Shown: positions 9,040-54,655 of the stretch, in pieces
How the letters are laid out: the number at the start of each line of letters is the position of its first letter
How positions within the stretch are numbered: position 1 is the first letter of the stretch
NCBI RefSeq assembly: GCF_027409185.1
Contig: NC_084462.1
Coordinates: forward strand, 184,688,071-184,752,070
From: Cynocephalus volans
Lineage: Eukaryota; Chordata; Mammalia; Dermoptera; Cynocephalidae
Length of the DNA stretch: 64,000 nucleotides
Direction: 5' to 3'
Translations under genes and position numbers: made by a program
Notes under the pieces: generated by a model
What the model saw: the letters and a program-made list of their open reading frames with translations, nothing else
The model's database searches: none
Told to the model about the DNA's origin: nothing

Positions 9040-10130
9040 CAGTGAACATTTTATACTTGTGCCCACCACAGATGTCCCCCTATAGAGGTAACACCATGGA
9101 CATCACCCCTCGTCACACCACAAACCTCACAGGTGCGATGTCATCCCATGTCACAATGTACGTGTCACACCATGGACATCACAACATAAACATCACACCA
9201 CATCATACCACAAGTGTTACATCATGTCAAATCACAAATGTGACCCCATGTCACAACATGGATACCACATAGCAAACATCACACAATGTTACACAAAAGA
9301 TGTCATCCCATGTCACACAATGTCACATCACAAAAGTCACACCTCCAATGTCACCTCATGTCACAGCACTAACATCACACCACAAACATCACCCCAGGTC
9401 ACACCACAAATGTCTCACCATAGACATCACCCCATGTCACACTTTGGATTCATACCACAAACACCATATCATGTCATGCTATGAACATCACACCAAGTCA
9501 CACCACAAATGTGACCCCATGTCACACAATGGATTCCATATCACAAACATCACCCCATGTCACACCATGAATGTCATACCTCAGGTGTCATCCTATGTCA
9601 CACCATGAATGTCACACCATGGACATCAGCCCATGTCACCCCACGATGTCAAACTACAAATGTCATACCATTACACACCATGAACATCACCCCAAGTTGC
9701 ACCAAAATGTCACTCCACAAATGTCACCCCATATGACACCTCAGATGTTACCACATGTCATGCCACAGGCATCACCCCATGTTACACCATAACGTCACAC
9801 CTGGGACATCGTGCCATGACACACCATTGTCATCACCCCATGTGACACCATGAACATCACCCCACGTCACACGGGATGTCACACCACAAACACTATACCC
9901 CGTCATGCCACGAACATCACACCATGTCAGAAAACAAATGTGACCTCATGTCATACCATGAGTACCACACTACAAATGTCACACCATGGGTGTCAAACCA
10001 CAAACATCACAACATATCATACCATGCAAGTCACCCTATGTCACACCAAAACATCACACTATGGCTGTCACCCCGGTCACACCATGGATGTCACCCCATG
10101 TCACACTATGGACATCACACCTCAGAGGGA
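9040..10130. repeat. Degenerate minisatellite of CACCCCATGTCACACCATG-like units
   Basis: About 1.1 kb is built from variants of ACATCACCCCATGTCACACC joined to CATGA, CACAA or CATGG. The arrangement is tandem with irregular unit lengths in the twenties. Frames stay open in places only because the motif is stop-poor. It lies about 2 kb downstream of the M2 exon of the downstream IgG gene. No comparable array is present near 42900-43340 in unit 2, so it expanded or was lost in one copy. Confidence 0.85.
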
Positions 10131-12049: not shown

Positions 12050-12133
12050 CTAAGCCCCCTGCCCGATCATGTTCCTGTAGTCGGGGACGATGGTATGCTT
12101 CAGCTCCACGACCGAGGAGAAGATCCACTTCAC
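12050..12133 (-). CDS. IGHG: IGHG downstream copy, M2 exon (cytoplasmic tail)
   Basis: The exon follows CTGCAG and reads [19 protein letters not shown] then RNMIGQGA and TAG. This is the 27-residue cytoplasmic tail of membrane IgG. The DYRNM stretch is the immunoglobulin tail tyrosine motif that recruits Grb2 and boosts signalling in class-switched B cells, by family knowledge. It joins M1 in phase 0. The protein sequence is identical to that of the other gene (45808-45891). Confidence 0.95.
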
Positions 12134-15100
12134 CTGCAGGGGACAGTGCAGGGTGAGCAGGGCCAGGACCCCCAGACCAGACCACCCATCAGCCCACCGC
12201 CAAGAGCCGAGCTGCTGCCTGTAGCAGAACTGGACACAGAGAGAAAGGCCTGGGCAGGGCCAGTAAGGGAGAAATGTTAGGGACGGCATGGGGACAGAGT
12301 AGGGACAGTGTGGGATCAGCATGGCGACAGGATGGGGACAGAGTGGAGACTGTATGGGGACGGTGTGGGGCAGTGTGAGGACAGCTTTGGGACAGACTAG
12401 GGACATTTTGGGGACAGTGTAGGGACAGTTTGGGAATAATATGACAGTGTGGTGTCAGGGTGGGGACTCTGTGGGAGACTGCTTGGGGACAGAGTGGGAA
12501 CGATGTTGGGAAGAGTATAGGAGACAGCATAGGGCCAGCGTGGGGACAACGTGGCCCACCTTGAAGAGGGTGACGGTGGCGCTGTAGCACACGCTGAGCA
12601 GGAAGAGCGTGATGAAGATGGTGATGGTCGTCCACAGCCCGTCCAGCTCCCCGTCCTGGGCCTCGGCACAGCTCTCGTCGGGTTGCAGCGCTGGACAGGG
12701 AGGGGGTGGTCAGTGCTGTGTCCTCCCCCGTGGGGCCTCTGGGGGGCGTGTCTGTCTGTGGCGGGGCAGGGGCATGGCGGGAGGCCCAGGAGGAAGGGCC
12801 CCGGCTGGGCTGGGCCACAGCACCCTGAGGTCAGCTGTCCTCAGCCATCCCCCCGAGCACCAGCCTCAGCTCCCCAACTCCTCCAGCTTGTGCCCCCGGG
12901 ATCTGCCAGACACCCCTGGCCATGGATGGTGGCCCGGCCAGCCTTGAGGCCCACTCCCTCTCTCCACACCCTGGTGCTGAGGCTGGTCAGGGCAGCATAA
13001 GCACCTTTGACCCCTGCAGGGCAGTGGTGCTGCAGCATGCTCCAGCTGGTGACCTGGCACAGAGGGCAGAGCCCGTCCTGGCAGGACCCTGGTGCAGGGA
13101 AGGGCAGTACACACCAGAAAGGGAGCCAGGGCCACAGCAGGGACAAGGCTGTGTCCTCTTGTGTGAGGGTCAGTGTGGGTGTGGGGGACTTGTGTGCGTT
13201 GGAGGGCATGTAGGTGCCCCCTTGTAAGAGCGGGGCTGCGTGTGTCTGAGCTGGTAACGTGTGGACCCTCTGCTGAGCAGCCACAGGTCACTGAGGTGCA
13301 CGTGGAGATGTGGGGTAGGCTAGTGTCCAGGACAGTGTCCATGTGACCAAGGGCTTGCTGTGCTCTGGCACCATGCAGTGCGCCCCATGTGATGCTCCAG
13401 TACGGTGGGTGTGTGCAACTGTGTGTGTATGTCTGTGTGTGCCAAGTGCGTGTGTGCAACTGTGTGTGTATGTCTGTGTGTGCCAAGTGCGTGTGTGCAA
13501 CTGTGTGTGCATGTCTGTGTGTGCCAAGTGCGTGTGTGCGGCCCTGGGCCGGGTGATGCTCAGGAGGACGGGCTTGTCTTCATGGGTCTGGAATCAGTGT
13601 CCTTGTGGGTGTGTGGGACAGTCCCTCTTAGGGGGTAGAAAGGCCCACTTGCCTTTGCCTCTCTGGTGCACAGGAGTGAGTGTCCCAATCTGTGGGCATC
13701 TCTGTCCCCACTCAAGGGCAGAGCTGCCTGAGCTGTGTTGTGAGGGGCAAAGGAGGGCCTATCCCTACACTCATGGGCCAGGTGTGCATCTTGAGGGGAC
13801 AAAGAGTGACCCTGTGGACAGAGAATTGGGGTGGGGGGCAAGGACAGGCTATTACAGAGGTGAGAACTGAGTGCTGGTTTCCCTCAGGGGCTCCTAGGGG
13901 CTTCTCATTGCCCAGCCCAGAGCTGCTGCTGGCTGCAGAGAGGGCTAGTGACAGGAGCCATGTGTGAAATGCCCCCTCCTTGGCAGAGAACAACCCGCAG
14001 GCACACCCCTTCCTGCATGGCATGGGCACTGCACACTGTGGATCCGCCCCACGTGGGACCCGCTCTCCCCCCCATGAGGACCCCCCCCAGGCCATAGCCT
14101 CGGAAAGAACCATGACAGTCTTGCAGGGTCCCAGGGCAGCGCTGGGTGCTTTATTTCCATGCTGGGGCACCCGGAAGTATGTACGGGGTGGATGGGTGGG
14201 CGCTGAGAGTCCTCGCAGGACCCCGAGAGCCTGCGGGGGAGCGAGGGGCTTGCCGGGCGCTGCGCTCATTTACCCGGAGGCATGGAGATGGACTCCTGCG
14301 TGCTGTGGTTTTTCAGGGCCTCGTGCAGGACGTGGCAGGTGAATTCGTCTTTATTCTGCCACTGCCTCTTGTCCACCATGAGCTTGCTGTAGACGAAGTA
14401 GGTGCCGTCATCGTCCAGCACAGACGGCGTGGTCTTGTAGTTCTCAACTGGCTGCTTGTTGTGCTTCCACTCGACGTAGATGTCATCAGGGTAGAAGCCT
14501 TTGGCCAAGCAGGTGACACTGACCTTGCTGTTCACCATCTCCTTTGCGGATGGGGCCAAGACGTACACCTGCGGCTCCATGGGCTGCCCTGTGGAGACAG
14601 AGGTCAGCACAGATGGTCACCCCCAGGGTGGAGGGATGGCCAAGCCAGTGTCTGATGGTGTGGCTATGGCAGCCCCACAAGCCCCACAAGCCCCACCTGC
14701 CCCGCCAGCCCCACTGCTCCCACCTTTGGTTTTGGAGATGGTTCTCTCGACAGGGGCTGGGAGGGCTTTGTTCTGGACCTTGCACTTGAATTCCTTGCCC
14801 TTCAGCCAGTCCTGGTGCTGGATGGGCAGGACGCTGACCACGCGTAACGTGCTGTTGAACTGCTCCTCCCTGGAAGTCTTCTGGGCTGTGTGCACCTGCT
14901 CACCATCCACGTACCAGCTGATCTCAACATTGGGGTCATCCTTGCTCACGTCCACTACCACGCAAGTGACCTTGGGGGTGAGGGACATCATGAGGGTGTC
15001 CTTGGGTTTTGGCGGGAAGAGGAAGACTGAAGGTCCTACCAGTGGGCAATCCCATTTTTGGCCTTTGAGCTCTGCAGAGAGAGAAGATTGGGGGTTGCTG

Positions 15101-15734
15101 GGGTCTAGGAGGAGAGGAGAGTCCAGCTGAGGGAGGGAGAGTTTGGCCCTTGGGGTGGACTTAGGACTGGGTCAGGCACCTTTCAGAGGTGGCTCTCAGC
15201 AGGTCTGAGTCCAATGCCCACCTCTGTGCCTGGTGGAAACACCAAGAGGACCCTCTCCCCTAGCTGGAGAGGTGGAGACAGAGACCTCCAGGTGGAGAAA
15301 CAGACAGGAGCCTCCCTCACTGTCCTGGGCTGGGGTCACCGACCAGGGCCAGGTTGCCAGGATGAAGTATGTCCAGGCAGGAGGGCTGACCCCAACCCTG
15401 TCTTCCAGTGGACATCCCTCCCTGAGGCCCATCCTCTCACCAATGGTCTTGTCCACCTTGGTGTTGGTGGCTGGGTGGGCTACGTTGCATGTGGCTTTAC
15501 GGCTGGGCAAGCTGCTGGCGGGCACGGTCACCATGCTGCTGAGGGAGTAGAGCCCGGAGGAGTGCAGGACGGACGGGAAGGTGTGCACACCGCTGGACAG
15601 GGCGCCTTTGTTCCAAGACACGGTCACCGGCTCTGGGAAGTAGCCCTTCACCAGGCAGCCCATGGTCACCATTTGGCCGGATGAGCCTCCACTGCAGGGT
15701 GCCATGGGGAAGACTGAGGGGGCTTTGGGGCTGG
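12050..15734 (-). CDS. IGHG: Immunoglobulin gamma heavy-chain constant gene, downstream copy (secreted and membrane forms)
   Basis: Exons on the minus strand are CH1 15441-15734, fused hinge+CH2 14724-15071, CH3 14266-14588, M1 12560-12690 and M2 12050-12133. All exons start after AG, all donors are GT, the exons join in phase 1 as usual for Ig domains, and no stop or frameshift is seen. The secreted constant part is 321 codons, against 331 in the neighbouring gene. The gene has no start codon of its own because it is spliced to a rearranged VDJ exon, as is normal. It encodes the heavy-chain constant region of secreted IgG or of the B-cell receptor. Two features are odd: the separate hinge exon is missing, with a one-cysteine hinge now inside the CH2 exon, and CH3 is strongly diverged. 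Expression is inferred, not shown. Confidence 0.93.
12280..12550. repeat. Minisatellite in the M1-M2 intron
   Basis: Tandem variants of TGGGGACAGTG, roughly 11 bp plus longer variants, fill most of the intron. The other gene has a longer and cleaner version at 46020-46460. On the transcribed (minus) strand it is C-rich. Confidence 0.85.
12560..12690 (-). CDS. IGHG: IGHG downstream copy, M1 exon (extracellular spacer and transmembrane helix)
   Basis: This 131-bp exon has the usual M1 length. It begins after TCCAG and ends AAG|gtg. It encodes an acidic linker ([17 protein letters not shown]) and then a transmembrane helix starting [16 protein letters not shown] and ending [10 protein letters not shown]. 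The linker cysteine is typical of membrane gamma chains. It is spliced from the cryptic donor inside CH3 (CCGG|GTAAATGA at 14273-14272). Confidence 0.95.
12691..14149 (-). other. Intron between CH3 and M1, downstream copy
   Basis: Non-coding. It is about 340 bp longer than in the other gene (46606-47838), partly because of the TG-rich repeat at 13404-13540. Parts are clearly homologous between the copies. Open frames in it are not supported by any family. Confidence 0.6.
13404..13540. repeat. Three copies of a 41-bp TG-rich repeat
   Basis: The unit GTGTGCAACTGTGTGTGTAT...GTGCCAAGTGC recurs with GCAAC at 13415, 13456 and 13497, a period of exactly 41 bp. It is absent from the matching intron of the other gene. 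Confidence 0.85.
14150..14155 (-). promoter_or_regulatory. Poly(A) signal of secreted IgG mRNA
   Basis: AATAAA on the minus strand, followed by GCACCCAGCGCTGCC, lies about 110 bp after the CH3 stop. This sequence and spacing match the secreted poly(A) site of other mammalian IGHG genes. Competition between its use and splicing to M1 sets the secreted to membrane ratio. Confidence 0.93.
14266..14588 (-). CDS. IGHG: IGHG downstream copy, CH3 domain with secreted tail
   Basis: This 323-bp exon runs from CCACAG|GGCAGCCC to the TGA at 14268-14266, the standard length. It has the domain cysteines (TCLAKGFYP and FTCHV), the VEW tryptophan and TTPSVLD. It ends [18 protein letters not shown] hand alignment with the other gene's CH3 gives 63 identities in 107 residues, far below the rest of the gene. 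At the FcRn and protein A face EU 433 is K instead of H, H435 is kept and Y436 is S. The change at 436 makes N434-H435-S436 an N-glycosylation sequon (14302-14310). The internal donor CCGG|GTAAATGA is intact for the membrane form. The frame is open and the fold residues are kept, so it looks functional rather than decayed. Confidence 0.95.
14724..15071 (-). CDS. IGHG: IGHG downstream copy, fused hinge+CH2 exon
   Basis: The acceptor TCTCTGCAG (ending 15072) is the hinge acceptor of the other gene, but no hinge intron follows. The exon reads straight from a short hinge, [10 protein letters not shown] (E spans the CH1 junction), through LV into [15 protein letters not shown] and the rest of CH2, ending at KTK|gtggga (14724). 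The length is 348 bp (116 codons). CH2 keeps both domain cysteines, the Fc glycan site FNST, HQDW, KCKV and ALPAP. EU 253 is M, not the usual I, in DTLMMSLT. The lower hinge has PLVGP in place of human LLGGP. The hinge has one cysteine, so a single inter-heavy-chain disulfide is expected. A hinge encoded within CH2 is the IGHA layout and is unusual for IGHG. Confidence 0.9.
15441..15734 (-). CDS. IGHG: IGHG downstream copy, CH1 domain
   Basis: The exon runs from CTTGCAG|CCAGCCCC to ACCATTG|gtgaga, 294 bp or 98 codons. It encodes [17 protein letters not shown], then the [15 protein letters not shown] core, GVHTFPSVL and [16 protein letters not shown]. Domain cysteines and tryptophan are present. 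The cysteine in MAPC sits where human IgG2, IgG3 and IgG4 bond to the light chain; the other gene has it one residue later (APSC). About 78% of residues match the other copy by hand count. Confidence 0.95.
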
Positions 15735-17330
15735 CTGCAAGAGAGGAGGGCCCGTGTGACCATAGAATCCCACAAAGGGGACCAGGCCCCGGAGGCTCCT
15801 CCATTCTTGGCTTTCCCAGGGCCTGGTCCCTCTGCAGGGATCCAGTGCTGGGCTCCTGGGTGTCAGGTGCCCACCTGGCTGGACCCACCTACCTCTCCTC
15901 AGCCCCCTCCCTACCCCAGGAGGCTCCAGGACAGGCCCCGTCCCCAATGTGCTTCAGGACGTCCGCAGGCCAGCTGCTCAGCTGTGGCTCTCTGCTGCCC
16001 AGGGCCTGGTGTCCTGCAGCCTCAGACACTGGGCTCCTCAGCCCGGTCAGCACATGATTCTGCCTGGAGCCAGCACAGTCCTGGGCCTCCAGCCCCTTTC
16101 CCGGCTCGGCTCACCCGTGCCACCTCGGGCATGGCTTGCCTGGGCACACAGCCCCTCACCCCTGCTCCTGCCTCTGGTGGTTGCCCGGCCAGATGGTGGC
16201 ACCAGGTCTTGGCCAGCTTCTGGCTGATGCCCCAGTCCCTGGCCCTGTCTCCACAGGCTGGCCCTGCCCTGCCCGAGCTGGCACCTCCCCAGTAGATGGT
16301 GCTTGGCCACTTTCTGGCCCTGCTCTGCTCCCTGCCCCTCTGCCCAGAGCTAGGTCACGGCTGCTCTCTGCCTCTGGGTCCTGAGTCTTCTGGAGGTGGC
16401 TCTGCAGGCAAGGAGCCCAGGCCCTAACTCTGGTCGGGTCAGTGTTACGCATCCCTGGACCCAGCACCACCGTCCCTGCCCTGAATCAGCCCACACTCCT
16501 CAGACTCCCCACCAACCCGTGTACCTCTGCTCTCTGTGGGTCTCACCCACCCCATGCCAGCCCAGGATCCCACATCTGTGCTACGGCCCCGAGCTCCTGG
16601 CCGCAGTCCCTCCTGGGGTCTTCCTTGAATCCTTTCCTGTGGTTCACCCAGAGCCCCTCCCTCCAGCAGCCCTGCCTTCCACCCTTCCTGCTCCTGGGCG
16701 GGCTGTGGCCTGTCCTGTCCTTCCTGGCCTACTATCCAGCTCCTGTGTGATCCAGAACCTTCCTCCTGGTGGGGACCCTGATGAGCTCGGCCCAGGACCC
16801 CTGCCCACCCCCCCTTCAAGCATAGGTAGAGACCTTGCTCCTGCCCTGACTCTCTTCTATTCTACGTGGAGCCAGCACCCCCAGGCCAAAGGGAGGTCCC
16901 TCATCTTACTCTGATGCTGGCCCAGACACTCTAGGACTTCGTGATGGGCTGGGGTGCAGCTCCTACCCCCGAATAAGCTAAGCCTGCACCTGCCAGTCCT
17001 ATGCCCTCTGACCCCTGTCCCTACTTCTCATCTACAGGCCCCAGCCTGACTCCCTCCTCTGCCTTGACCTGCACCTCAGGCTTGGACAGCCCATGCTCAG
17101 CCCTGAATGGGCCCCTTCTAGCTTTAGGCACCTGTTCTCTGCAACTGCACCTGTCCGTGCAGGTGACCTCAGCCCCGAGCCCCTTCCCTATCCATCCCAG
17201 CACCTTGGAGCCGCTCACTGGGCTCAGCTCACGCTGTCCCTCGTGCACATGGAGGCTCACCTGAGCGCTCCTCAGACCTCAGCTGTCCCTGCTGCCTGCA
17301 CCTGGTCGGCTCACACCAGAGCCCAGGGCT
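15735..17330 (-). other. Intron between switch region and CH1, downstream copy
   Basis: GC-rich non-coding sequence, very similar to 49521-51100 in the other unit, with a few small indels. It forms the 3' part of the S-CH1 intron. Open frames on both strands are shadows. Confidence 0.7.
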
Positions 17331-19600
17331 CCCTGCAGCTCAGCACTCTGTCCCCTGAGCTTTTGGGCTGCTCCTGCCCCTCCTGCAGCTGCTCACCTGT
17401 GACTGCTCTGCCCCAGTGCCTTGAGTTCTTGGGGCTCCCCCTTTCCATCTGGCTACTGTTACCTGAGGCTGCTCTGCCCTTGTCTCCTGATGGATTGAAG
17501 CTTTCCCTGTCTGTCTTGCATCTGCTCACCTGTGCCTGCTTTGCCCCTGTCTCCAGAGCTTCTGGGGCTCCCCCTGCCCTTCCTGTCCCTGCAAACCTGT
17601 GGTGCTCTGTCCCTGTCCCTTGAGCTCCTGGAGCTCTCCCTGCCTGGCCTTCCCCTGCTCACCTGTGGATAACGTGTTCTTGTCCTCTGAGCTCCTGGGA
17701 CTGTTTCTGCCTGTCCTGCCCCTGCTCACCTGTGCCTGTCCTGTCCCTATGCCCTGAGCTCCTCAGATTAACCCTGCCAGCCCTGTACTGCTCAACAGTG
17801 GCTGCCCTGTCCCTGCCCTCTGAGCTCCTGTGGTTCTTCTTGCATGCCCTGCCCCTACTCATCTGTGGCTGCTCTGTCCCTGTCTCCTGAACTCCTGGAG
17901 CTCCCCATGCCCCTCCTGCATCTGCCTACCTGTGGCTGCTCTGCTCTTGTCCGCGGAGCTTCTGGGCCTGCTTCTGCCTTTTCCTGCCCCTGCTCACCTG
18001 TGGCTGCCCGGGCCCTGTGACCTGAGCTCCTGGAGCTCCCACTGCCCATCCCACTGCTGCTCGCTTGTGGCTACTCTGTCCCTGTCCCCTGACTTCCCAG
18101 AGCTCCCTCTGCCTGTCCTGCCCCTGCTCACCTGTGGCTATTCTGCAGCTGTCCCCTGAGCTGCTGTGGCTGCCCTGCCCATCCTTCCCTTGCTCACCTG
18201 AAGCTGCTCTGTCCCAGTCCCCTGAGCTGCTGTGGCTGTCCTGCCCTTCCTGCCACTGCTCACCTGAGGCTGCTCTGTCCCAGTCCCCTGAGCTGCTGTG
18301 GCTGCCCTGCCCATCCTGCCCCTGTTCACCTGAGGCTGCTCTGTCCCTGTCCCCTGAGCTGCTGTGGCTGTCCTGCTCTTCCTGCCCCTGCTCACCTGAG
18401 GCTGCTCTGTCCCTGTCCCCTGAGCTGCTGTGGCTGTCCTGCCCTTCCTGCCACTGCTCACCTGGGGCTGCTCTGTCCCTGTCCCCTGAGCTGCTGTGGC
18501 TGTCCTGCTCTTCTTGCCCCTGCTCACCTGAGGCTGCTCTGCCCCTGTTCCCTGAGCTGCTGTGGCTGTACTGCCCTTCCTGCCACTGCTCACCTGAGGC
18601 TGCTCTGTCCCTGTCCCCTGAGCTGCTGTGGCTGTCCTGCCCTTCCTGCCACTGCTCACCTGAGGCTGCTCTGTCCCTGTCCCCTGAGCTGCTGTGGCTG
18701 TCCTGCCCTTCCTGCCCTTGCTCACCTGAGGCTGCTTTGTCCCTGTCCCCTGAGCCGCTGTGGCTGCCCTGCCCATCCTGCCCCTGTTCACCTGAGGCTG
18801 CTCTGTCCCTGTCCCCTGAGCTGCTGTGGCTGTCCTGCCCTTCCTGCCCTTGCTCACCTGAGGCTGCTCTGTCCCTGTCCCCTGAGCTGCTGTGGCTGTC
18901 CTGCCCTTCCTGCCCCTGCTCACCTGAGGCTGCTCTGTCCCTGTCCCTTGAGCCTCTGTGACTGCCCTGCCCATCCTGCCCCTGCTCGCCTGAGGCTGCT
19001 CTGTCTCTGTCCCCTGAGCCGCTGTGGCTGTCCTGCCCATCCTGCCCCTGCTCACCTGAGGCTGCTCTGTCCCTGTCCCCTGAGCCGCTGTGGCTGCCCA
19101 GCCCATCCTGCCCCTGCTCACCTGAGGCAGCTCTGTCCCTGTCCCCTGAGCTGCTGTGGCTGTCCTGCTCTTCTTGCCCCTGCTCACCTGAGGCTGCTCT
19201 GCCCCTGTCCCCTGAGCTGCTGTGGCTGTCCTGCCCATCCTGCCCCTGCTCACCTGAGGCTGCTCTGTCCCTGTCCCCTGAGCTGCTGTGGCTGTCCTGC
19301 CTTTCCTGCCCTTGCTCACCTGAAGCTGCTCTGTCCCTGTCCTCTGAGCTGCTGTGGCTGCCCTGCCCATCCTGCCCCTGCTCACCTGAGGCTGCTCTGT
19401 CCCTGTCCCCTGAGCTGCTGTGGCTGTCCTGCCCATCTTGCCCCTGCTCACCTGAGGCTGCTCTGTCCCTGTCCTCTGAGCTGCTGTGGCTGCCCTGCCC
19501 ATCCTTCCCTTGCTCACCTGAGGCGGCTTTGTCTCTGTCCCCTGAGCCACTGTGGCTGCCCTGCCCATCCTGCCCCTGCTCACCTGTGGCCTGTTTTGCT
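17331..19600 (-). repeat. Switch region S-gamma of the downstream IGHG gene
   Basis: Tandem repeats fill this stretch about 1.6 kb upstream of CH1. 17331-18130 has diverged units of about 67 bp. 18130-19600 has about 22 very similar 66-bp units. On the sense (minus) strand the core is G-rich with GGGGCAGGATGGGCAGG and CAGCTCAGGGGACAGGGACA. Each unit carries AGCT, the palindromic AID hotspot. G-rich non-template strand, position between the I region and CH1, and AGCT density all fit an S region used for class-switch recombination. Because 66 is a multiple of three, a stop-free frame of 514 codons exists, but it is an artefact. Confidence 0.92.
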
Positions 19601-21650
19601 TGTCAAGACTGGAAGTGCTCTCCGCTGTCTCCTGGTTCCGGCTCCCACTTTCTTGCATCTTCTCCTCTGTGTCTGGCCTCACTCACTGAGGTGGGGTGCA
19701 TGGGGGACCCCTTGGCAATTGCGTCTTGGATGTCGTTGAGCTGCTCGTCGTGTGGTTGTGCTGTGTTAAAGCAGTTCAGGCTTCCTGGGGGTGGGCAGTT
19801 CGGTGTCCTTCACATGTGAGCTTTCCCACAGCCCAGCCCCCAGCAGAGTCAGAACGGGATTGAAACCAGGTCACGGCTTATTTCCTAAAGTTCCTTTTTC
19901 TTCTCCTATTTTCTGTGTCAGAGTGCGTGGGAGAGTCCAGTATGCTGAGGCTGCCTCATGTGGGTGGGTGCATGGGGGTGGGGTTGGTGGGTCCTGGGAC
20001 CCCCTGCACAGGTTGGGATGCTCGGCCACCATGAGCTGCTCTTCACTCTCTGCCTCCAATAGTCCCTGGGCCAGCCTGAGCCTGTTCCCAACTTGGCCTG
20101 CTCCACCCTGACGCCTCCTCCAGGGCTCAGGTCTCTGGGTAGCTGGGCCTCTCACCTAAGCCCTTTGGCTCCACCTAACCCAGTGGCTGCAGCGACAACA
20201 GGTGCCCAAGTTCAGGAGGACCCAGAGGTGGCAAAGAGAGGGAACCCTGGACAGGGACAGCCTTTTGGGCTGGCAGTCCTGAAGGAACCAGATGGGCCTC
20301 AGTTCTCGGGGCCGGGGGTTCAAGTTCTGTTCCTGGGGTCAAGGGGACATGCGACAGAGGGTGAACGTGGCAAAGCAGAGTGTGTGTGGCACAGGGCCAT
20401 CAACCCTGCAGAGGGGAGAACCAGGGGCCCATTCAGAGCCAGGGCTGAGCAGGGGCTTTCGAGCCTGGGCTGCAGGTCAGGGGAGAGGAGGTGGTGGGGC
20501 AGGGCCCTGAGTCTGAAAAGAGGGGACCAGCTACAGAGAGGGGAGGCCAGGCAGCGGCGGGCTTAGCTTTTTCAGGAGTAGGGGCTGCACCCTGAATTGC
20601 ACCAAGGTCCTAGGGTCGCTGGGCCAGCACCAGAGAGAGAACAGGGGCCTCCGTGGGGCATGGCGGTGCTGGCTCCATGCAGAGGAGGGGTGGGTCAGGG
20701 GTGGAGCAAGACCCCTTCCTGCGCTAGGGGTGGAGGGGGGAGGTGGTAGGGAGAGCTTGGACTTAGTTCAGCAGGGCCCTCACTAGGAGAGCAGGTCTGG
20801 AGGGAGCAGGAGCTGGGCAGGTGGCCTGAAGGGCAGGTTAGAGGATGGCCTGGTGGAGGGAGGTGACAGGGGAGAAGGGGAGGAAGAGAGACAGACCCCA
20901 AGGGCCCGAGGATGCGTCCTGGTGGAAGTGACCGCGATGGCATCTTGGGGAGGTGGGTCTTGGTCCTGGGGTCCCTGGAGGGAGCAGTCTCAGGGCTGCA
21001 GGTTGGCCTGGAGCTTGTGTGGGGTAGTGGTCACGGTCATCTCGTGGCCTCTGGGTCCAAATCATGCTCCCCCCGGGAAACACACACTCCACCAGGACGT
21101 CCCTAGGCCCCTGTGTCCCTGCTGGTTCTGGAGCTGCCCAAGGCCTGAGCCCCAGCCTGGCCCTGAAGGGGTGAATGTCCCAGAGAGAGCTGGATGCGCA
21201 CACGTGGCTCCAGTGGGGTCCATCCCTGCAGCCGAGGCTCCGGCATCGTTCAGAACTGGCTGAGCTTCTTGCATCTACGTGTAGATTGATGTTTTCACCG
21301 CATTGGGAAAGTTTGGTCTTTGTTTCTTTAAAGACTTCATCCCCATTTTGTCTTTTCTCCTCTCCTGGGATTTCAGTTTCACATATTTTGGAAGCTGCTC
21401 AGTGTCCTAGAGGACATTGAACCTCCCCCCCTGCAATTCTCTCTCTGTTCTTTGGGTTGGATTCAGCGGATTTCTGTGGATATTTCTCTAAGTTCGCTGA
21501 CCTTTCTCATGCCGTCTCCAACCTGCTGTTAAGCTCCTAAGTGATTTTTATCCTTTGAGAATTGTACTTTTTAGTCCTGAATTTGTATTTAGTCCTTGTA
21601 AATATTTTTGATTTTTCTGTAGAGATTCCCATCTATTTACTCATTATGAT
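19601..21650 (-). promoter_or_regulatory. Conserved region upstream of S-gamma, expected I-gamma promoter/exon
   Basis: This 2-kb non-repetitive stretch is almost identical to 54656-56700. By its place just 5' of the switch repeats it should hold the I-gamma germline-transcript promoter and exon that open the S region to AID. I could not locate a convincing STAT6 or NF-kB site or the exon borders by eye, so the sub-features are not given. No protein-coding gene is supported. Confidence 0.55.
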
Positions 21651-21659
21651 CATTTAAAA

Positions 21660-22300
21660 AAATCTTTAATCATATTTAAATTAGTTTTTAAATTTATTTT
21701 TTAAGAGTTTGTTTATTTATTTATTGTTCTTTGATTATTTATTTGTAAAATTTTAGGCCAGAAAACCAGTCTCAATACATTAAAAAAGACCTAGAAAATG
21801 TGTTCTCTAACCACAGTAGCTGAAGTAAACTTAGAAAATTCACAAATATGTGCAAATTAAAAACTTTCCTTAGTAAACAATGGATCAAAAGGAACATCAC
21901 AGGGACATTAAAGAGGACGTTGAGATAAAGATCAAAGCCCAGCACGTCAACGTCTGTAGGATGCAGGGCTCGCGCCGTGCTGAGGTGAACATCTGCACTT
22001 GTAAACACGTATATGAAAAATAAAAATCCCAAGTCAGTAATGTAAACTTCTACCTTAAGAAAACAGAAAAAGAAGAGCGAAGTAAATCAAAACAATTATA
22101 CGTAGGGAATAAGAAAGATCACAACAGAAATATATGAAATAGGGAATTGAAAAACAGTTGAGAAAATCAACAAAACCAAAAGCTGATTCTTTAAAAAGAT
22201 CAACAAAATTTGCAAACCTTTGTGCAGAGTGACCAAGGATCAAAGTGAGACGACGGAAACTACTAAAATCAGAACTACAGCAGGGGCAGCGCTACATTGT
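21660..22300 (+). mobile_element. L1 ORF2 fragment, plus strand
   Basis: AT-rich sequence reads on the plus strand like degenerate L1 ORF2 between endonuclease and reverse transcriptase. It includes the GAAAATTCACAAATATGTG and AGCTGATTCTTTAAAAAGAT landmarks common in L1. Many stops. A near-identical copy is at 56720-57360. Confidence 0.7.
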
Positions 22301-24010
22301 CACTATGGTTTTCTTGTGGTGGTAGATTTAGTTTCTTTCTCTTTCTCATTTGCATTTTTGTTCTACCTGTGGGTTTTGTTTTTTCTTGTGTATTCATGGT
22401 AGTGATTATTGTTTTTGGACTCCAGGTGCAGGACTTCCTTGAGGATTTCATGTAGGTCTGGTCAGGTGGTGGCGAACTCCCACAGCTTTTAACTGTCTGG
22501 AAAATTCACTATATTTCCCTTGTTTCTGAAGGATAGCCTTAGTATTCTTGGCTGGCAGTTTTTTACTTTTAGTAGTTTGAATATATCATCCCATTTTCTC
22601 CTGACATGTAGAGCTTCCATTGAAAAATCTGCTGTTAGTCTGATAGGGCTCCCTTACAGGTGACCTGATGCTTTTCTCTTGCTTCTTTTGAGATTCTCTC
22701 TTTGTCTTTGAGCTTTGCCAATTTGACTCTAATGTGTCTCACAGGATATTTTTGGGTTGAATCTGTGTGAGGAAAATAGAAGAGTTTAATCAGGCCCCCT
22801 TGCCTCAGGCCCAGTTGGGGGTGGTGCAGCACATTCTTTGAAAAGAAATTGTGTGGGGGTGGAGTTAGTTCGCATGCCAGCACATGTATCTTTTTAGTTT
22901 TGTTGCTATTGTTGTGTGTTCCTCAGAGTTTGTGAAGCAGTGCTGGAGGCAGAGCTTGTGTCTAAAAATAGAGCATGTTTACTTTGCTGGCAGCTGGTCA
23001 GTTTTTCTTTAAACTTTGCCAGTAGCAGTTGAGTTTCTCTTAGGGCTCCCTAGCTCTTAGATGTGTGTGTGCTGAATAAAGTCTAGTACTTTTTCAACCA
23101 AGACTCCAAGAACCTTTTTTTCCAGTTAACTTAGCTTGTAGACCAGAATGTGAAGGGTTTGTGAACCAGTCTGGACAATAGGCTGGAGGAGTCTGTGAGC
23201 TCTAGACCCAGCCCCAGCTCTATAATCTGTCAGGGGATCTTCGAGCCTCCTGGATCTGAAGGTCCATCTCTCTCCCTATACCTGGGAACTTTTCCATTAT
23301 TATTTCGTTGAATAGAGTTTCCATGTCTTTCCCTTTCTCCTCCCTTTCTGAAACACACATGATTTGAGTGTTTGTGCACCTGTGTTATTTTGAAAAGACT
23401 GTCTTCAAGGCCAGATATTCTTTCGTCTGCTTATTCCAGCCAAGTTATCGGTTGTGTTTTTCATTTTGTTGAGTGAACCTTTCAGTTCCACGAGTTCATC
23501 TACCTTCTTTTTTAAGGTATTAATCTCTTTGTAAACTTACTTTTTTATATCCTGGAATTTTTTTTTCTCATTTCATTATGTTGTGTAACTGAATTTTCTC
23601 ATACCTCAGTGAGTTTCCTTGCGATTGTGGCCTGGAATTCCTTTTCAGCCATTTCAAGGGTTTCCTGCTCTACAGGTTCTGGTACTTGAGAATTACTGTC
23701 TTCTTTTGGTGGTGTCATATTTTCTTGGGTTTTCATAGTTGTAGTATCTGTATGTTGATATCTGGTCAGCTGGTAGACGGTTGCTTCTTCTATTACTCTG
23801 GAGTGAGCTTTGAGGAGAGAGACTTCTTCTTCTTTTCTGGTCTCCACTGGTGGCTCTTTGTGTCAATGCAGTTGATTGTCTGATGGGCCACCTGCACAGT
23901 GGCAGTGGTTATGGTGGACCACCTGTGCAGAAGTAGTGATTTTGGCATGCTCCTTGCCTGCTTCCAGGTGGGGGATGCTGCCCTCGGCTCCTGCCTGGGA
24001 CCCTGGGCTC
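22300..24010 (-). mobile_element. L1 5' part (ORF1 and 5' UTR), minus strand, with LTR insertion
   Basis: On the minus strand this is L1 ORF1-region sequence with the AEKEFQATIARKLTEV motif near 23600, followed by 5' UTR to about 24010. The other unit has it uninterrupted at 57360-58615. Here an LTR-like insert splits it at 22766-23223. Confidence 0.7.
22766..23223 (+). mobile_element. LTR-like insertion specific to unit 1
   Basis: About 460 bp interrupt L1 sequence that is continuous in unit 2 (near 57830). AATCTG flanks both sides (22760-22765 and 23224-23229), a candidate 6-bp target duplication. The insert starts TGTGAGGAAAATAG and holds GCTGAATAAAGTCTAGTA followed by TTTCAACCAAGACTCC, which resembles the R/U5 of gammaretrovirus-type LTRs on the plus strand. 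The right end does not read a clean CA, so the exact end is uncertain by a few bases. No viral genes. Confidence 0.6.
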
Positions 24011-45891: not shown

Positions 45892-48800
45892 CTGCAGGGG
45901 ACAGTGCAGGGTGAGCAGGGCCAGGACCCCCAGACCAGACCACCCATCAGCCCACCGCCAAGAGCCGAGCTGCTGCCTGTAGCAGAACTGGACACACAGA
46001 GAAAGGCCTGGAGCCTAGTGAGTGGGAAATGTTGGCGACAACATAGGGACTGCATGTGGACAAAATTGGGACAGTGTGGCAACAGCATGGGGACAGTGTG
46101 GGGGACAGTATGGGGACAGTGTGGGGACAGTATGGGGGACCGCATGGGAAATGAGTAGGGGCATCATGGGTACAGTGTGCAGCGAGAGTGAGAACATTAC
46201 GGGGACTGTGTGTGGAAAGATTGGGGACAGTGTGTGGACAGTGTGGGGATACTGTGGGGACTTTGTTGGGGACAGCATGAGGACAGTGTGGGGACAGTGT
46301 GGGGGGAGAGTGAGGACAGTGTGGGGACAAAGGGAGACAAATGGGGACATTGGGGGGAACTCTATGAAGTACAGTGTGCAGACTGTGTGGAGACTGCGTG
46401 GGGACAGAGTGGGAGCGATGTTGGGGGCAGAGCGGGAGACAGCATAGGGCCAGCGTGGGGACAGCGTGGCCCACCTTGAAGACGGTGACAGTGGCGCTGT
46501 AGCACACGCTGAGCAGGAAGAGCGTGATGAAGATGGTGATGGTCGTCCACAGCCCGTCCAGCTCCCCGTCCTGGGCCTCGGCACAGCTCTCGTCGGGTTG
46601 CAGCGCTGGACAGGGAGGGGGTGGTCAGTGCTGTGTCCTCCCCCATGGGGCCTCTGGGGGGCGTGTCTCTCTGTGGCGGGGCAGGGGCATGGCGGGAGGC
46701 CCAGGAGGAAGGGCCCCGGCTGGGCTGGGCCACAGCACCCTGAGGTCAGCTGTCCTTGGCCGTCCCCGTTGGGCACCAACCTCAGCTCCCCCAACTCTTC
46801 CAGCTTGTGACCCTGGGATCTGCCAGACACCCCTGGCCATGGAAGGTGGCCTGGCCAGCCTTGAGGTCCACTCCCTCTCTCCACACCCTGGCCTTGCGGC
46901 TGGCAAGGGCAGCGTAAAGACTTCTGCCCCCCTGCAGGGCAGTGGCTCTGCAGTGGCCTCCCCCTGGTGACCTGGCACAGAGGGCAGAGCACGTCCTAGG
47001 ATGACCCTGGTACAAGGAAGGGCACTACTGGAAAAGGGGCCATGGTCAGGGCAGGGACAGTGCGGTGTCTCTGTGTGTGAGGGTCCGTGTGGGTGTGGGG
47101 ACTTGTGTGCGTTGGAGGGTGTGTAGGTGCGTCCTCGTAAGAGCGGGGCTGCGTGTGTCTGAGCTGGTAGCGTGTGGACCTGCTGTTGAGCGGCCACAGG
47201 GTGCTGAGGTGCATGTGGAGGTGTGGGGTAGACTAGCGTCCAGGACAGTGTCCATGTGACTGGGGCCTTGCTGTGCTGTGTCACCATGCAGTGTGCCCTG
47301 TGAGGCATCCCTGTGTGCTGGGCATGTGCACATGTGAGGTGTCCCCATGAGTGGGCAGTGTCCCCATGAATGGGCGGCCATGGCCCTGAGTCTGGGCAGA
47401 GCTGTTGTGCGGGGCAAAGCAGGGCCTGTCCTTACATCCATGGGCCAGGCATGCCTCCTGAGGGGACACAGAGTGACCCCGTGGACGGGGCACTGGGGGG
47501 CAAGGACAGGCTGGGACAGAAGTGGGAACTGAGTGCTGGTTTTCGTCAGGGGCTCCTAGGGGTTTCCTGCTGCCCGGCCCATCCTGCATGGCCTGGGCAC
47601 TGCACACTGGATCCGCCCCACGTGGGACCCGCTCTCCCTCCCTCATGACGACCACTCAGGCCGTAGCCTTGAAAAGAACCATGACAGTCTTGCAGGGTCC
47701 CAGGGCAGCGCTGGGTGCTTTATTTCCTTGCTGGGACGCCTGGAAGTATGTACAGGGGGAGTGGGTGGGTGGGCGCTGAGAGTCCTTGCAGGACCCCGAG
47801 AGCCTGCGGGGGAGCGAGGGGCTTGCCGGGCGCTGCGCTCATTTACCCGGATTGTGGGAGAGGGGCTTCTGCACATAGTGGTTGTGCAGGGCCTCGTGCA
47901 TGACAGAGCATGTGTAGACACTCCTACTCAGCCACGAGCTCTTGTCCACTGTGAGCTTGCTGTAGAGGAAGTAGGTGCCGTCGCTGTCCAGCACGGATGG
48001 GGTGGTCTTGTAGTTGTTCTGTGGCTTTCCTTCACTCTCCCACTCGACGAGGATTTCATCGGGGTAGAAGTTTTTGACCAGGCAGGTCAAGCTGACAGTT
48101 CTCTGGGTCATCTCCTCCCGGGGTGGGGCCATGACGTACACCTGTGGACTCCGGGCCTGCCCTGTGGGGACAGAGGTCAGCAAAGACAGTCACCCCCAGG
48201 GTGGAGGGATGGCCAAGCCAGTGTCTGCTGGTGTGGCTATGACAGCCCCATGAGCCCCGCCTGCCCCTCCAACCCCACCGGCCCCTCTGCTCCCACCTGC
48301 CCCACCGCTCCCACCTTTAGCTTTGGAGATGGTTCTCTCGACGGGGGCTGGGAGGGCTTTGTTCTGGACCTTGCACTTGAATTCCTTGCCCTTCAGCCAG
48401 TCCTGGTGCCGGATGGGCAGGACGCTGACCACGCGTATCGTGCTGTTGAACTGCTCCTCCCTGGAAGTCTGGGCCGTGTGCACCTGCTCACCGTCCATGT
48501 ACCAGCTGATCTGGACATCAGGGTCATCCTGGCTCACGTCCACCACCACGCATGTGACCTCAGGGGTGAGGGAGATCATGAGGGTGTCCTTGGGTTTTGG
48601 GGGAAAGATGAAGACCGAAGGTCCTCCCTGGTTATCAGAACCTGGTGTGGAGAGACCGAGGCAGGGTGGTCAGCACATGGTGGAGCCTGTCCTTGTGCTC
48701 AGATGCTGCTCTCAGACTCCCATCCCCCCTTGGGATTAAGGGGAGTCCTGGGCTGACTTACATTTGCACTTGGGACACGTGGTGCCGGAGTCAGGTTTGG

Positions 48801-49520
48801 AGGCACGGGGCTCTGCAGAGAGAGAAAATTGGGGCTTATTGAATTCTGGAAGGAGAGTAGAGTCCAGCTGAGGGAGGGAGAGTTTGGCCCTTGGATGGAC
48901 TTAAGGTGGGGCCAGGCTCATTTCAGAGCTGGCTCCCAGCCGTTCTGAGTCCAGTGCCCACCTCTGTGCGCAGAGGTAAGCACACAGGGGGCATCCATCC
49001 TGTGCCACCTTGTGCCTGGTGGAAACACAAAGAGGACCCTTTCCCTTAGCTGGAGAGATGGAGACAGAGACGTCTAGGTGGAGAAACAGACAGGAGCCTC
49101 CCTCACTGTCCTGGGCTGGGGTCACTGACCCCGGCCGGGTTGCCAAGATGAGGTATGTCCTGGCAGGAGGGCTGACCCCGAGCCTACCTTCTGGTGCATG
49201 ATCCTCCCTGTGGCCTGTCCTCTCACCAATCATCTTGTCCACCTTGGTGCTGCTGGCCGGGTGGGCTACATTGCAGGTGACTTTCTGGCTGGGCCAGGTG
49301 CTGGTGGGCACGGTCACCATGCTGCTGAGGGAGTAGAGCCCCGAGGACTGCAGGACAGACGGGAAGGTGTGCACACCGCTGGACAGGGCGCCTTGGTTCC
49401 AGGACACGGTCACTGGCTCAGGGAAATAGCCCTTCACCAGGCAGCCCAGAGTCACCGTGGAGCCCTCCGTGCTCTTGCAGCTGGGTGCCAGGGGGAAGAC
49501 TGAGGGGGCCTTGGTGCTGG
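45808..49520 (-). CDS. IGHG: Immunoglobulin gamma heavy-chain constant gene, upstream copy (secreted and membrane forms)
   Basis: Exons on the minus strand are CH1 49227-49520, hinge 48762-48812, CH2 48315-48641, CH3 47839-48161, M1 46475-46605 and M2 45808-45891. All have AG acceptors and GT donors, join in the standard phases and are free of stops. The secreted part is 331 codons, like human IgG1 (330). This is the conventional gene of the pair: separate hinge exon with CPKCK, FcRn residues I253, H310, H433, N434, H435 and Y436 present, and Fc glycan FNST. One codon is missing in CH2 next to the glycan loop. It lies 5' of the other IgG gene, so class switching reaches it first. It encodes secreted IgG and membrane IgG of the B-cell receptor. 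Confidence 0.95.
46020..46460. repeat. Minisatellite in the M1-M2 intron (TGGGGACAGTG units)
   Basis: Tandem units of about 11 bp with insertions; longer than the version in the downstream gene (12280-12550). The sharp length difference shows rapid turnover. Confidence 0.85.
46475..46605 (-). CDS. IGHG: IGHG upstream copy, M1 exon
   Basis: 131-bp exon after TCCAG, ending AAG|gtg. It encodes the acidic linker [17 protein letters not shown] and the transmembrane helix ending [10 protein letters not shown]. One residue (V for L near the end) differs from the downstream copy. Confidence 0.95.
46606..47718 (-). other. Intron between CH3 and M1, upstream copy
   Basis: Non-coding, homologous to 12691-14149 but shorter. 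No gene seen. Confidence 0.6.
47719..47724 (-). promoter_or_regulatory. Poly(A) signal of secreted IgG mRNA, upstream copy
   Basis: AATAAAGCACCCAGCGCTGCC on the minus strand, about 115 bp after the CH3 stop, the usual secreted site. Confidence 0.93.
47839..48161 (-). CDS. IGHG: IGHG upstream copy, CH3 domain with secreted tail
   Basis: 323-bp exon from CCACAG|GGCAGGCC to the TGA at 47841-47839. It has [31 protein letters not shown] and YTCSV, and ends [20 protein letters not shown]. The H433-N434-H435-Y436 set is the usual FcRn and protein A contact. The internal donor CCGG|GTAAATGA (47846-47845) is present for splicing to M1. It is close to typical placental IgG, unlike the CH3 of the downstream gene. 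Confidence 0.96.
48315..48641 (-). CDS. IGHG: IGHG upstream copy, CH2 domain
   Basis: 327-bp exon from CACACCAG|GTTCTG to GCTAAAG|gtggga. The lower hinge reads [11 protein letters not shown], so the human L234-L235 pair is [15 protein letters not shown] keeps I253 but has L255 for R. Glycan site FNST, HQDW, KCKV and ALPAP are kept. Compared with the downstream gene and human it lacks one codon in the loop before REEQFNST (TAQTS against TAQKTS). It is otherwise about 90% identical to the downstream CH2. Confidence 0.95.
48762..48812 (-). CDS. IGHG: IGHG upstream copy, hinge exon
   Basis: 51-bp exon between TCTCTGCAG and gtaagt. With the split codons it reads [18 protein letters not shown], the last cysteine being formed across the hinge-CH2 junction (T|GT). 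Three cysteines, two in a CPKC core, should give inter-heavy-chain disulfides. The 120-bp intron that follows is missing in the downstream gene. Confidence 0.93.
49227..49520 (-). CDS. IGHG: IGHG upstream copy, CH1 domain
   Basis: 294-bp exon from CTTGCAG|CCAGCACC to ATGATTG|gtgaga. It encodes [20 protein letters not shown], then [28 protein letters not shown] and [16 protein letters not shown]. The extra cysteine in APSC is one residue after its place in the downstream copy (APC) and is the likely light-chain partner. Confidence 0.96.
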
Positions 49521-51100: not shown

Positions 51101-54100
51101 CTCACACCAGAGCCCAGGGCTCCCTGCAGCTCAGCACTCTGTCCCCTGAGCTTTTGGGCTGCTCCTGCCCCTCCTGCAGCTGCTCACCTGTGACTGCTCT
51201 GCCCCAGTGCCTTGAGTTCTTGGGGCTCTCCCTTTCCATCCGGGACTGTTACGTGAGGCTGCTCTGCCCTTGTCTCCTGAGCTAAAGTGGCTATCCATGC
51301 CCATCCTGCCCCTGCTCACCTGTGGCTGCTCTGCTCCTGTACCCTGAGCTCCCAGACATCCCCCTGCCCATCCTGCCCCTGTGCACATGTGGCCCATCTG
51401 TACCTTTTCTCCCTAGCTCCTGGAGGTCCCCGTAACTGTCCTGCCTCTGCTCACCTGTGACTTCTCTGTCCCTGTCCCCTGAGTTCCTGGGACTGCTTCT
51501 GCCTGTCCTGCCCCTGCTCAGTGCTGGCTGTTCAAGTCCTGTCCCCTGAACGCCTGAAGTTCCCCCTGCCTATCCTGCCCCTATACCTGTGGCTGCTCAG
51601 TTCCTGTCCCTGAGTTCCTGGAGCTGCCCTTGCCCATCCTGCCCCTGCTCATCTGTGGCTGCTGTGTCCCTGTCAACTGAGCTCTTGGAGCTCCCCCTGC
51701 ACATCCTGTTTGTGCTCACCTGTGGCTGCTCTGCTCTTGTCCCCTGAGCTCCTGCAGCTCCTCCTCCCCATCCTTCCCTTGCTCACCTGTGGCTGCTCTG
51801 CCCCTGTCCCCTGAGCTCCTGGGGCAACCCCTACCCACCCTGCCCCAGCTCAGTTGTGGCTGCTCAGCTCTTGTTCCCTGAGCACCCGGAGCTCCCACTG
51901 CCTGTTCTGCGCTTGCTCAGCTGTGACTGCTCTATCTCTGTCCCCTGAGCTCCTGGAGCTCTCCTTGCCGGTCCTGCCCCTGGTCACCTGTGGCTGCTCT
52001 GGTCCTGTCCCCTGAGCTCCTGGGGCAACCCCTACCCACCCTGCCCCAGCTCAGTTGTGGCTGCTCTGCTCTTGTCCCCTGAGCTCCTGCAGCTCCTCCT
52101 CCCCATCCTTCCCTTGCTCACCTGTGGCTGCTCTGCCCCTGTCCCCTGAGCTCCTGGGGCAACCCCTACCCACCCTGCCCCAGCTCAGTTGTGGCTGCTC
52201 TGCTCTTGTCCCCTGAGCTCCTGCAGCTCCTCCTCCCCATCCTTCCCTTGCTCACCTGTGGCTGCTCTGCCCCTGTCCCCTGAGCTCCTGGGGCAAGCCC
52301 TACCCACCCTGCCCCAGCTCAGTTGTGGCTGCTCAGCTCTTGTTCCCTGAGCGCCCGGAGCTCCCACTGCCTGTTCTGCGCTTGCTCAGCTGTGACTGCT
52401 CTGTCTCTGTCCCCTGAGCTCCTGGAGCTCTCCTTGCCGGTCCTGCCCCTGGTCACCTGTGGCTGCTCTGGTCCTGTCTCCTGAGCTCCTGGGGCAACCC
52501 CTACCCACCCTGCCCCAGCTCAGTTGTGGCTGCTCTGCTCTTGTCCCCTGAGCTCCTGCAGCTCCTCCTCCCCATCCTTCCTTTGCTCACCTGTGGCTGC
52601 TCTGCCCCTGTCCCCTGAGCTCCTGGGGCAACCCCTACCCACCCTGCCCCAGCTCAGTTGTGGCTGCTCAGCTCTTGTTCCCTGAGCGCCCAGAGCTCCC
52701 ACTGCCTGTTCTGCGCTTGCACAACTGTAACTGCTCTGTCTCTGTCTCCTGAGCTCCTGGAGCTCTCCTTGCCGGTCCTGCCCCTGGTCACCTGTGGCTG
52801 CTCTGGTCCTGTCCCCTGAGCTCCTGGAGCTCCCCTTACCCATCCTGCATGTGCTCACCTGTTTCTCCTCTGCTCCCCGAGCTCCTCCTGACTGGTCTAC
52901 CCCTGCTAACCTGTGGCTGCTCTGGTCCTGTCCCCTGAGCTCCTGGAGCTCCCCTTACCCATCCTGCATGTGCTCACCTGTTTCTCCTCTGCTCCCCGAG
53001 CTCCTCCTGACTGGTCTACCCCTGCTAACCTGTGGCTGCTCTGCCCCTGTCCCCTGAGCTCCTGCTGCAAGCCCTGCGCATCCTGCCCCTGCTCACCTAT
53101 GGCTGCTCTGCTCCTGTACCTTGAGATCTTGGAGCTCCCCATGCCTGTTCTGCCCCTGGTCACCTGTGGCTACTCTAGTTCTGTCCCTTGAGCTAGTGGT
53201 GATGCCTTTGCCTTTCCTGCCCCTGCTAAACTGTGTCTTCTCTGTCCCTGTCCCCTGACTTCCTTCAGCTGCATTTACCTGTCCTGTACCTGCTTCCCTG
53301 ATGCTGCTCGTGAGTGCCTGCCTGGACCCCCCACTGCCTGTCCTGCCTCCGCTCTTCTGTGGCTGCTCTGTCCCTGTCCCCTGAGCTCCCAGGCCTTCCC
53401 CTGTATGTCCTGCCCCTGCATACCTGTGGCTGCCCTGCCCCTGTACCCTGATCTTGGAGCTCCCCAAGTTCTGCTCCCGGTCATGTGTGGCTGCTCTGCC
53501 CCTGTCCCCTGAGCTCCTGAGGCTACCCCTGCCCATCCTGCCCCTGCTCAGTTGCAGCTACTCAGCTCCTGTTCCCTGAGTGCCTGGAGGTCCCACTGCC
53601 TGTTTTGCCCTTGCTCACCTGTGACTGCCCTGTCCCTGTGGAGCTCTCCTTGTTGGTCCTGACCCTGGTCAACTGTGGCTACTCTATTCCTGTTCCCTGA
53701 GCACCTGAAGCTCCCCTTGCCTGTCTTGTCTCTGCTCTTCTGTGGCTACTCTGTCTCTTTCCCCTGAGCTCACAGACCTTCCCCTGCATGTCTAGCCCCA
53801 GCTCACCTTTGGCTGTTCTGCTCCTGTACCCTGAGATCTTGGAGCTCCCCATGCCTGTCCTGTACCCCGGTCACCTGTGGCTGCTCTAGTCCTGTCCCCT
53901 GAGCTCCTGTAGCTCCCCTTGCATGTCCTGCCCCTGCCCACTTGTGGCTACTCTACCCTTGTCCCGTGAGCTACTGGGGATGCCTCTGCCTTTCCTGCCC
54001 TTGCTCACCTGTGGCTGCTCTACCCCTCTCTTCTTAGATCCTGGAGGTCCCCTTGTCCATCCTGCATATGCTCACCTGTTTCTCCCTTGCTCTTGTCCCC

Positions 54101-54655
54101 TGAGCTCCTGGAACTCCTCCTGTCCATCATGCCCCTACTCAGTTGTGGCTGCTCTGCTCGTATCCTTTGACCTCCTGGAGCTCTCCTGCTGGTCTTGTCC
54201 ATGGTCACATTTGGCTGCTCTAGTCCCGTCCCCTGAGCTCATGGAGCTCCCACTGCCCATCCTGTTCCTGCTCACTTGTGGCTGCTCAGTTCCTGAACCC
54301 TGACCTCCTGGGGCTTCACCTGGTCATCCTGCCCCTGCTCACCAGTGGCTATTCTGCTGCTGTCCCCTGAGCTCACAGAGCTCCTTCTGCCTCTCCTGCC
54401 CCTGAGCCGCTGTGGCTGCCCTGCCCATCCTGCCCCTGCTCGCCTGAGGCTGCTCTGTCCCTGTCCCCTGAGCTGTTGTGGCTGTCCTGCCCTTCCTGCC
54501 CTTGCTCACCTGAGGCTGCTCTGTCCTTGTCCCCTGAGCTGTTGTGGCTGTCCTGCCCTTCCTGCCCTTGCTCACCTGAGGCTGCTCTGTCCTTGTCCCC
54601 TGAGCCGCTGTGGCTGCCCTGCCCATCCTGCCCTTGCTCACCTGTGGCCTGTTTT
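51101..54655 (-). repeat. Switch region S-gamma of the upstream IGHG gene
   Basis: About 3.5 kb of diverged tandem units of about 67 bp, G-rich on the sense (minus) strand, with AGCT in most units (for example CAGGAGCTCAGGGGACAG). A higher-order repeat of seven units (469 bp) is visible: 51716-51898 recurs at 52185-52367, and again 335 bp (five units) on, from 52520. A 119-bp direct duplication sits at 52794-53031. Only the 5' end (about 54400-54650) has the 66-bp type that dominates the other gene. Position and motifs fit class-switch recombination. Confidence 0.92.

Follow-up and report, generated by a model that had tools for sequence, protein, structure and literature searches.

An IGHG gene of Cynocephalus volans in which the hinge and CH2 are encoded by a single exon

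One of the four IGHG genes found in the genome of Cynocephalus volans carries its hinge at the start of the CH2 exon. The exon at 14724-15071 (348 nt, minus strand) encodes a hinge of 10 residues that runs directly into CH2 (LVGPSVF), and, as read from the genome, this is a real and derived change of exon layout, limited to a single gene, in an IGHG that is otherwise intact. The best explanation, and probably the right one, is that the hinge-CH2 intron was lost through a genomic deletion that kept the reading frame, so that an otherwise complete IgG is still encoded. The window, that is the whole stretch of 64,000 nucleotides that was analysed, corresponds to C3:184688071-184752070 and belongs to a 187-Mb contig of an assembly of 2,814,384,482 bases (2.81 Gb) in 130 contigs. 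The features of the fused gene and of the neighbouring upstream gene are given below in window positions; in all splice sites the slash marks the exon-intron border.

Fused gene:
19603..22773, minus strand: region 5' of the switch-like array, matching the corresponding region of the upstream gene at 96.9% identity
17348..19590, minus strand: switch-like array, 33.8 copies of a 66-bp unit
15441..15734, minus strand: CH1 exon, 294 nt, donor ATTG/GTGAGAGG
15072..15440, minus strand: CH1-hinge intron, 369 nt, alignable with its counterpart in the upstream gene as far as the hinge acceptor (86% alike)
14724..15071, minus strand: fused hinge-CH2 exon, 348 nt
15043..15071, minus strand: hinge-derived part of the fused exon, 10 residues, the first base of the E codon lying in CH1
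14724..15042, minus strand: CH2-derived part of the fused exon, starting with LVGPSVF and keeping the FNST glycosylation site
14266..14588, minus strand: CH3 exon with the secretory stop and an internal donor, CGG/GTAAAT
14150..14155, minus strand: AATAAA poly(A) signal, 3' of CH3
12560..12690, minus strand: membrane exon M1, open
12050..12133, minus strand: membrane exon M2, open up to its own stop
Upstream gene:
51139-54648: switch array, mostly of 67-bp units, GAGCT 17.2 per kb
48762..48812, minus strand: separate hinge exon, 51 nt, 17 residues + (C)
48642..48761, minus strand: hinge-CH2 intron, 120 bp, GTAAGT...CCAG
48315..48641, minus strand: CH2 exon, used for comparison

A C1-set family search of this genome detected four IGHG CH3 exons on the contig of the window. 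Following the direction of transcription, the genes were ordered IGHM - Ga - upstream gene - fused gene - Gd - IGHE - IGHA, where Ga and Gd designate the 5'-most and the 3'-most IGHG, and the fused gene is the third of the four; IGHM, IGHE and IGHA were assigned from their sequence.

The fused exon is bordered by the acceptor TTCTCTCTCTGCAG/AGCTC and the donor CCAAAG/GTGGGA and its reading frame is open; within it, the border between hinge and CH2 was placed by CTGG(T)AGGACC, which is common to the CH2 of two sister genes. The splice sites of the gene looked standard, and among the acceptors listed for it the one of the hinge scored highest (12.3, computed from base frequencies). When spliced together, CH1, the hinge-CH2 exon and CH3 gave 321 residues followed by a stop, and the alignment showed that the domains retained the IgG landmarks, including FNST in CH2. 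An earlier note on this DNA had placed the fused exon at 14724-15071 and the intron of the upstream gene at 48642-48761, in both cases exactly to the base, and its statement that the other exons were intact was confirmed by reading CH1, CH3, M1 and M2 with the frame open. The short hinge with a single cysteine that it described was also found: 12 residues precede GPSVF in the fused gene, as compared with 23 in the upstream gene, 23 in Ga and 22 in Gd, and the hinge contains one cysteine and no CxxC. In a mostly human sample of 162 proteins, of which 17 were unmeasurable, the stretch from CH1 to PSVF, 15 residues long in the fused gene, was longer in 142 of the 145 measurable proteins and shorter in three, all of them gene models without a hinge.

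Both sequence and position identified the fused gene as an IGHG. Its CH1, CH2 and CH3 were closest to IgG constant domains, its M1 and M2 showed 93% and 89% identity, respectively, to the human gamma membrane peptides used as queries, and it sits between IGHM and IGHE with switch-like repeats upstream. A full-length protein search gave 3234 matches; among the 120 listed, 118 had an identity of 65-68%, the two that scored highest had 62% and 47%, and the matches with source names were largely IgG heavy chains, the others being generic or unnamed. No close database match was detected, the best identity being 68% among these 120 listed of the 3234 full-length matches; with the hinge-CH2 region as query it was 76% (among 120 listed of 234 matches), and the search with CH3 yielded six candidates, none of them significant. 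At the curated thresholds of Rfam there were 0 matches; the 10 that lay beneath them (best E 0.017) fell well short of the family cut-offs.

In the passages of the IMGT description that deal with hinge exons (PMC7555362), the gamma hinge has an exon, or several exons, of its own and that of alpha is fused in 5' to CH2, and the guinea pig paper, where it treats this point, likewise describes the eutherian IgA hinge as joined to CH2 (PMC3382241). The separate hinge exon typical of IGHG was absent from the fused gene and present in 3/3 sister genes. Of the features of IGHA, the hinge fused to the 5'-end of the CH2 exon was found in the fused gene; the single membrane exon and the IgA domains were not, since there are two gamma-type membrane exons and CH3 ends in PPGK followed by a stop. 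The suggestion that the gene is an IGHG by sequence, with an IGHA-type hinge carried on its CH2 exon, was in agreement with both our exon reading and the layouts given in those passages of PMC7555362.

In the three sister genes the hinge is a separate exon. That of Ga has 51 nt, EPSDSKSGSSTTCPECE(C), and is followed by an intron of 120 bp, and that of Gd has 48 nt, VPRDSNPEIPTCPKCS, and is followed by an intron of 118 bp; the 120-bp intron that the earlier note assigned to the upstream gene was borne out, together with its 51-nt hinge exon. The hinge-CH2 intron was 96.6-99.2% identical among the three intron-bearing genes. The hinge is thus separate in 3/4 of the IGHG genes of this genome and fused in 1/4, and because 3/3 sister genes retain the intron, its loss is derived. 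Judged from these four genes, the fusion is a derived state confined to one of them.

The switch-like array of the fused gene contained AGCT at 15.6 per kb (over 17300-19600) and GAGCT at 4.8 per kb, and 3.9 units of 66 bp were also present in the switch array of the upstream gene, at 54395-54648. The region at 19603..22773 is, from its position, probably the I-exon region. Two other repeats were observed in the window. A tRNA-derived dimeric SINE at 61210-61377, which may resemble the CYN family of colugos, was also present in 4/8 sampled 10-kb stretches; nineteen SINE fragments used as queries had no match. A degenerate repeat at 9092-10009, with His- and Thr-rich open frames, is probably a simple minisatellite.

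The fused gene was compared with its sisters at the junction. Homology to the upstream gene was continuous through the CH1-hinge intron up to the acceptor and resumed in CH2, with no trace of an intron between them. The colinear BLAST pieces flanking the junction ended at 15040/48628 and 15069/48810, with 28 nt of the fused gene and 181 nt of the upstream gene between them. The net shortening of the fused gene was 148 nt with respect to Gd and 153 nt with respect to both Ga and the upstream gene (35 vs 183, 188 and 188). On the CH2 side of the junction the fused gene has CTGGTAGGACC where Gd and Ga have CTGGGAGGACC, with one base different, and this match indicates that Leu-Val-Gly-Pro is CH2 sequence and that approximately 11 nt were lost from the start of the CH2 exon. 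In EU numbering these four residues are 235-238, with Gly236 changed to Val, and 231-234 are absent. On the hinge side, 29 nt are left.

The single deletion proposed in the earlier note fitted these data at its CH2 end (CTGG[T]AGGACC), but the hinge side could be aligned convincingly with no sister gene. We infer that one deletion, beginning after Cys-Pro and ending in CH2, is the simplest account, although the hinge letters are too diverged for proof. It would have extended from just past the hinge Cys-Pro, across the intron, to about 11 nt into the CH2 exon without closing the frame, and the normal hinge acceptor would then open a single hinge-CH2 exon. An alternative course, possible although unlikely, is that the hinge itself was replaced or rebuilt at the outset, by an insertion, by conversion from an unsampled IGHG or by several small indels, and that the intron was lost separately. 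Such a history would fit the behaviour of the hinge core (~26 nt), which matched the upstream gene no better than shuffled sequences did (334/500 and 729/1000 shuffles scored as well) and gave the same result with Ga (477/1000). It would also fit the 35-nt junction piece, no exact 12-nt word of which recurs elsewhere in the window, and the loss from the fused gene (near 15229) of 46 nt of CH1-hinge intron that the upstream gene (near 48970-49011) and Ga have in common. However, IgG hinges evolve fast and a poor alignment of them is to be expected, and there was a weak similarity between the hinge core and the hinge of Gd (29/1000 shuffles scored as well), both of which speak against a rebuilt hinge.

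We also considered whether the fused gene is still functional. In CH2, the changes private to the fused gene amounted to five synonymous nucleotides and three non-synonymous codons, and the chance of so few non-synonymous changes under neutrality was P 0.02 (assumed neutral share 0.76). The comparison of CH2 between the fused and the upstream gene gave dN 0.043 and dS 0.202, and the corresponding pair test gave P 0.0009 if both genes were neutral and a borderline P 0.02-0.06 if only the other gene was constrained. In CH1 (15441-15734) there were 12 private non-synonymous codons and two synonymous nucleotides, including S13C and C14S, by which the cysteine that should bind the light chain is moved by one residue. 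Constraint on the gene's own branch thus appeared in CH2 and not in CH1, where the 12 vs 2 changes may reflect relaxed constraint. The open frame survived in 8.7-40% of simulated neutral copies (substitutions only), and taken alone it argues weakly for function.

The CH3 of the fused gene was identical to that of Gd at 323/323 nt, within an identical tract of 386 nt (window 14260-14645). Elsewhere the two genes were 87% identical in CH2, 86% in the CH2-CH3 intron, 84% in the first 700 nt of the 3' flank and 80% in the CH1-hinge intron, and the four IGHG genes carried two CH3 types, ~75% identical to each other. Because CH3 is identical and the other parts compared are only 80-87% so, the fused gene and Gd have exchanged sequence recently, in a pattern suggestive of gene conversion, and this counts among the arguments for a gene that is still alive.

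These observations bear on the idea that the fused gene is a dying copy, damaged by the fusion and hardly or not expressed, whose frame is a leftover or has been kept by conversion with its neighbour. The private CH1 changes, the fraction of neutral simulations that stayed open and the CH3 shared whole with Gd are all compatible with decay, as is the lower density of GAGCT in its switch array as compared with that of the upstream gene (4.8 vs 17.2 per kb). On the other hand, the changes of CH2 on its own branch were mostly synonymous, and the splice sites, both membrane exons, AATAAA and the switch-like array are present, so that decay seems rather improbable. From the substitutions and signals described here, a functional gene appears the more likely state.

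The earlier note also stated that the hinge enters CH2 without any splice site. The hinge does read openly into CH2, but the junction contains a donor-like sequence, CCACTG/GTAGGA, at 15039, with a score of 6.3 (the donors of real exons in both genes scored 6.6-8.9). Its in-frame partners among the listed acceptors had exon starts at 14970, 14817 and 14811 and scores of 5.9, 5.9 and 5.1, and splicing to them would drop 23, 74 and 76 residues of CH2, respectively. A further proposal is that the transcript includes a small extra exon from the CH1-hinge intron, which would make the real hinge longer than the fused exon suggests. A candidate is found at 15222-15263 (42 nt, 14 residues), in phase and open, with an acceptor of 9.3 and a donor of 7.6, and it was created by the absence of the 46-nt intronic stretch mentioned above. 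Nevertheless, it has no cysteine and does not resemble a hinge, and the upstream gene, despite its normal hinge exon, has two such in-phase candidates, showing that this one does not exceed the chance level; we regard its use as very improbable. Least probable of all is an assembly error or collapse at the junction: there is no N anywhere in the window, the contig around it measures 187 Mb, the junction piece keeps the frame and does not result from simply joining sister sequences, and ~26 nt at the junction have no counterpart of that form in any sister gene.

Much of the flexibility and the effector strength of IgG depends on the hinge. The deletion proposed above would yield an otherwise complete IgG in which 12 residues lie between CH1 and GPSVF, the hinge has a single cysteine and EU 231-234 are missing. 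The short link would limit the movement of the Fab arms, and the heavy chains would be joined by one hinge cysteine adjoining CH2, or by none with exchange of half-molecules, as occurs in human IgG4. EU 231-234 includes residues that touch Fc-gamma receptors, and because these positions are removed effector function should be weak; the loss of E233-L234 and the Val at 236 would weaken receptor binding and give a neutralising, poorly inflammatory subclass. Unusual residues were also seen at positions 253 and 433-436, at the FcRn / protein A face. In EU numbering, the fused gene has Met253 (window 14986-14988), where the other 9/10 aligned sequences have Ile, and Lys433 (433-436 being window 14299-14313), where the other 9/10 have His, and its Met253, Lys433 and Ser436 are all common to Gd. 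If the gene is used, its product is probably a stiffer and less inflammatory antibody. That it represents a functional, effector-poor IgG subclass, whose IGHA-like layout evolved independently and which still exchanges CH3 with its neighbour, is a tentative proposal that we would place slightly below even probability.

The loss of the exon boundary in one gene of four, with three sisters that kept it, allows a single species to be used for comparing hinge length, disulfides and lower hinge, and it offers an example of an IGHA-like layout arising from an IGHG-like one. Human IgG2 and IgG4 have weaker effector function and an altered lower hinge, and the lower hinge is altered in the fused gene too. 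In contrast to it, they have two or more hinge cysteines and, in the passages of PMC7555362 on human genes, a separate hinge exon. Those IGHG genes whose hinge exon is separate (human IGHG1/2/4 in the same passages of PMC7555362, and the three sisters) share with the fused gene the CH1-CH2-CH3 order and the splice phases, and the sisters also share the position between IGHM and IGHE and the IgG-type membrane exons (M1 was read in all three, M2 in the upstream gene and in Ga). They differ from it in that the fused gene has hinge and CH2 as one exon and a shorter hinge. The H-CH2 exon of IGHA, as laid out in PMC7555362, has the same organisation as the fused exon, and the CH2 exon of the IGHA of this genome, read by eye, also opens with a hinge-like stretch. 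However, IGHA has one membrane exon according to that layout, and the fused gene has two together with IgG domains, so the likeness is one of layout only.

Among the papers listed from the largely open-access literature searched, no IGHG with a fused hinge-CH2 exon was found, and six peptide strings of these genes had no match in that literature. The part of the elephant study that concerns the hinge (PMC3045440) reports that hinge exons could not be identified, which makes that species uninformative as a precedent. In leporid IgG, according to the relevant part of PMC4185434, the hinge is 11 residues long and CH3 varies more than any other domain. A further comparison was provided by the Egyptian rousette, whose IgG2, IgG3 and IgG4 have no hinge CxxC and carry Leu234Pro according to a passage of a review (PMC11329927, citing Larson 2021), indicating that a hinge of similar effect was already described at the protein level. 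CxxC is absent there as in the fused gene, which would also have Pro at 234 if aligned gap-free; the likeness taken from that passage of PMC11329927 holds at the protein level. Since this genome measures 2.81 Gb and those of fruit bats are near 2 Gb, the resemblance of the fused gene to the rousette hinge is probably a parallel.
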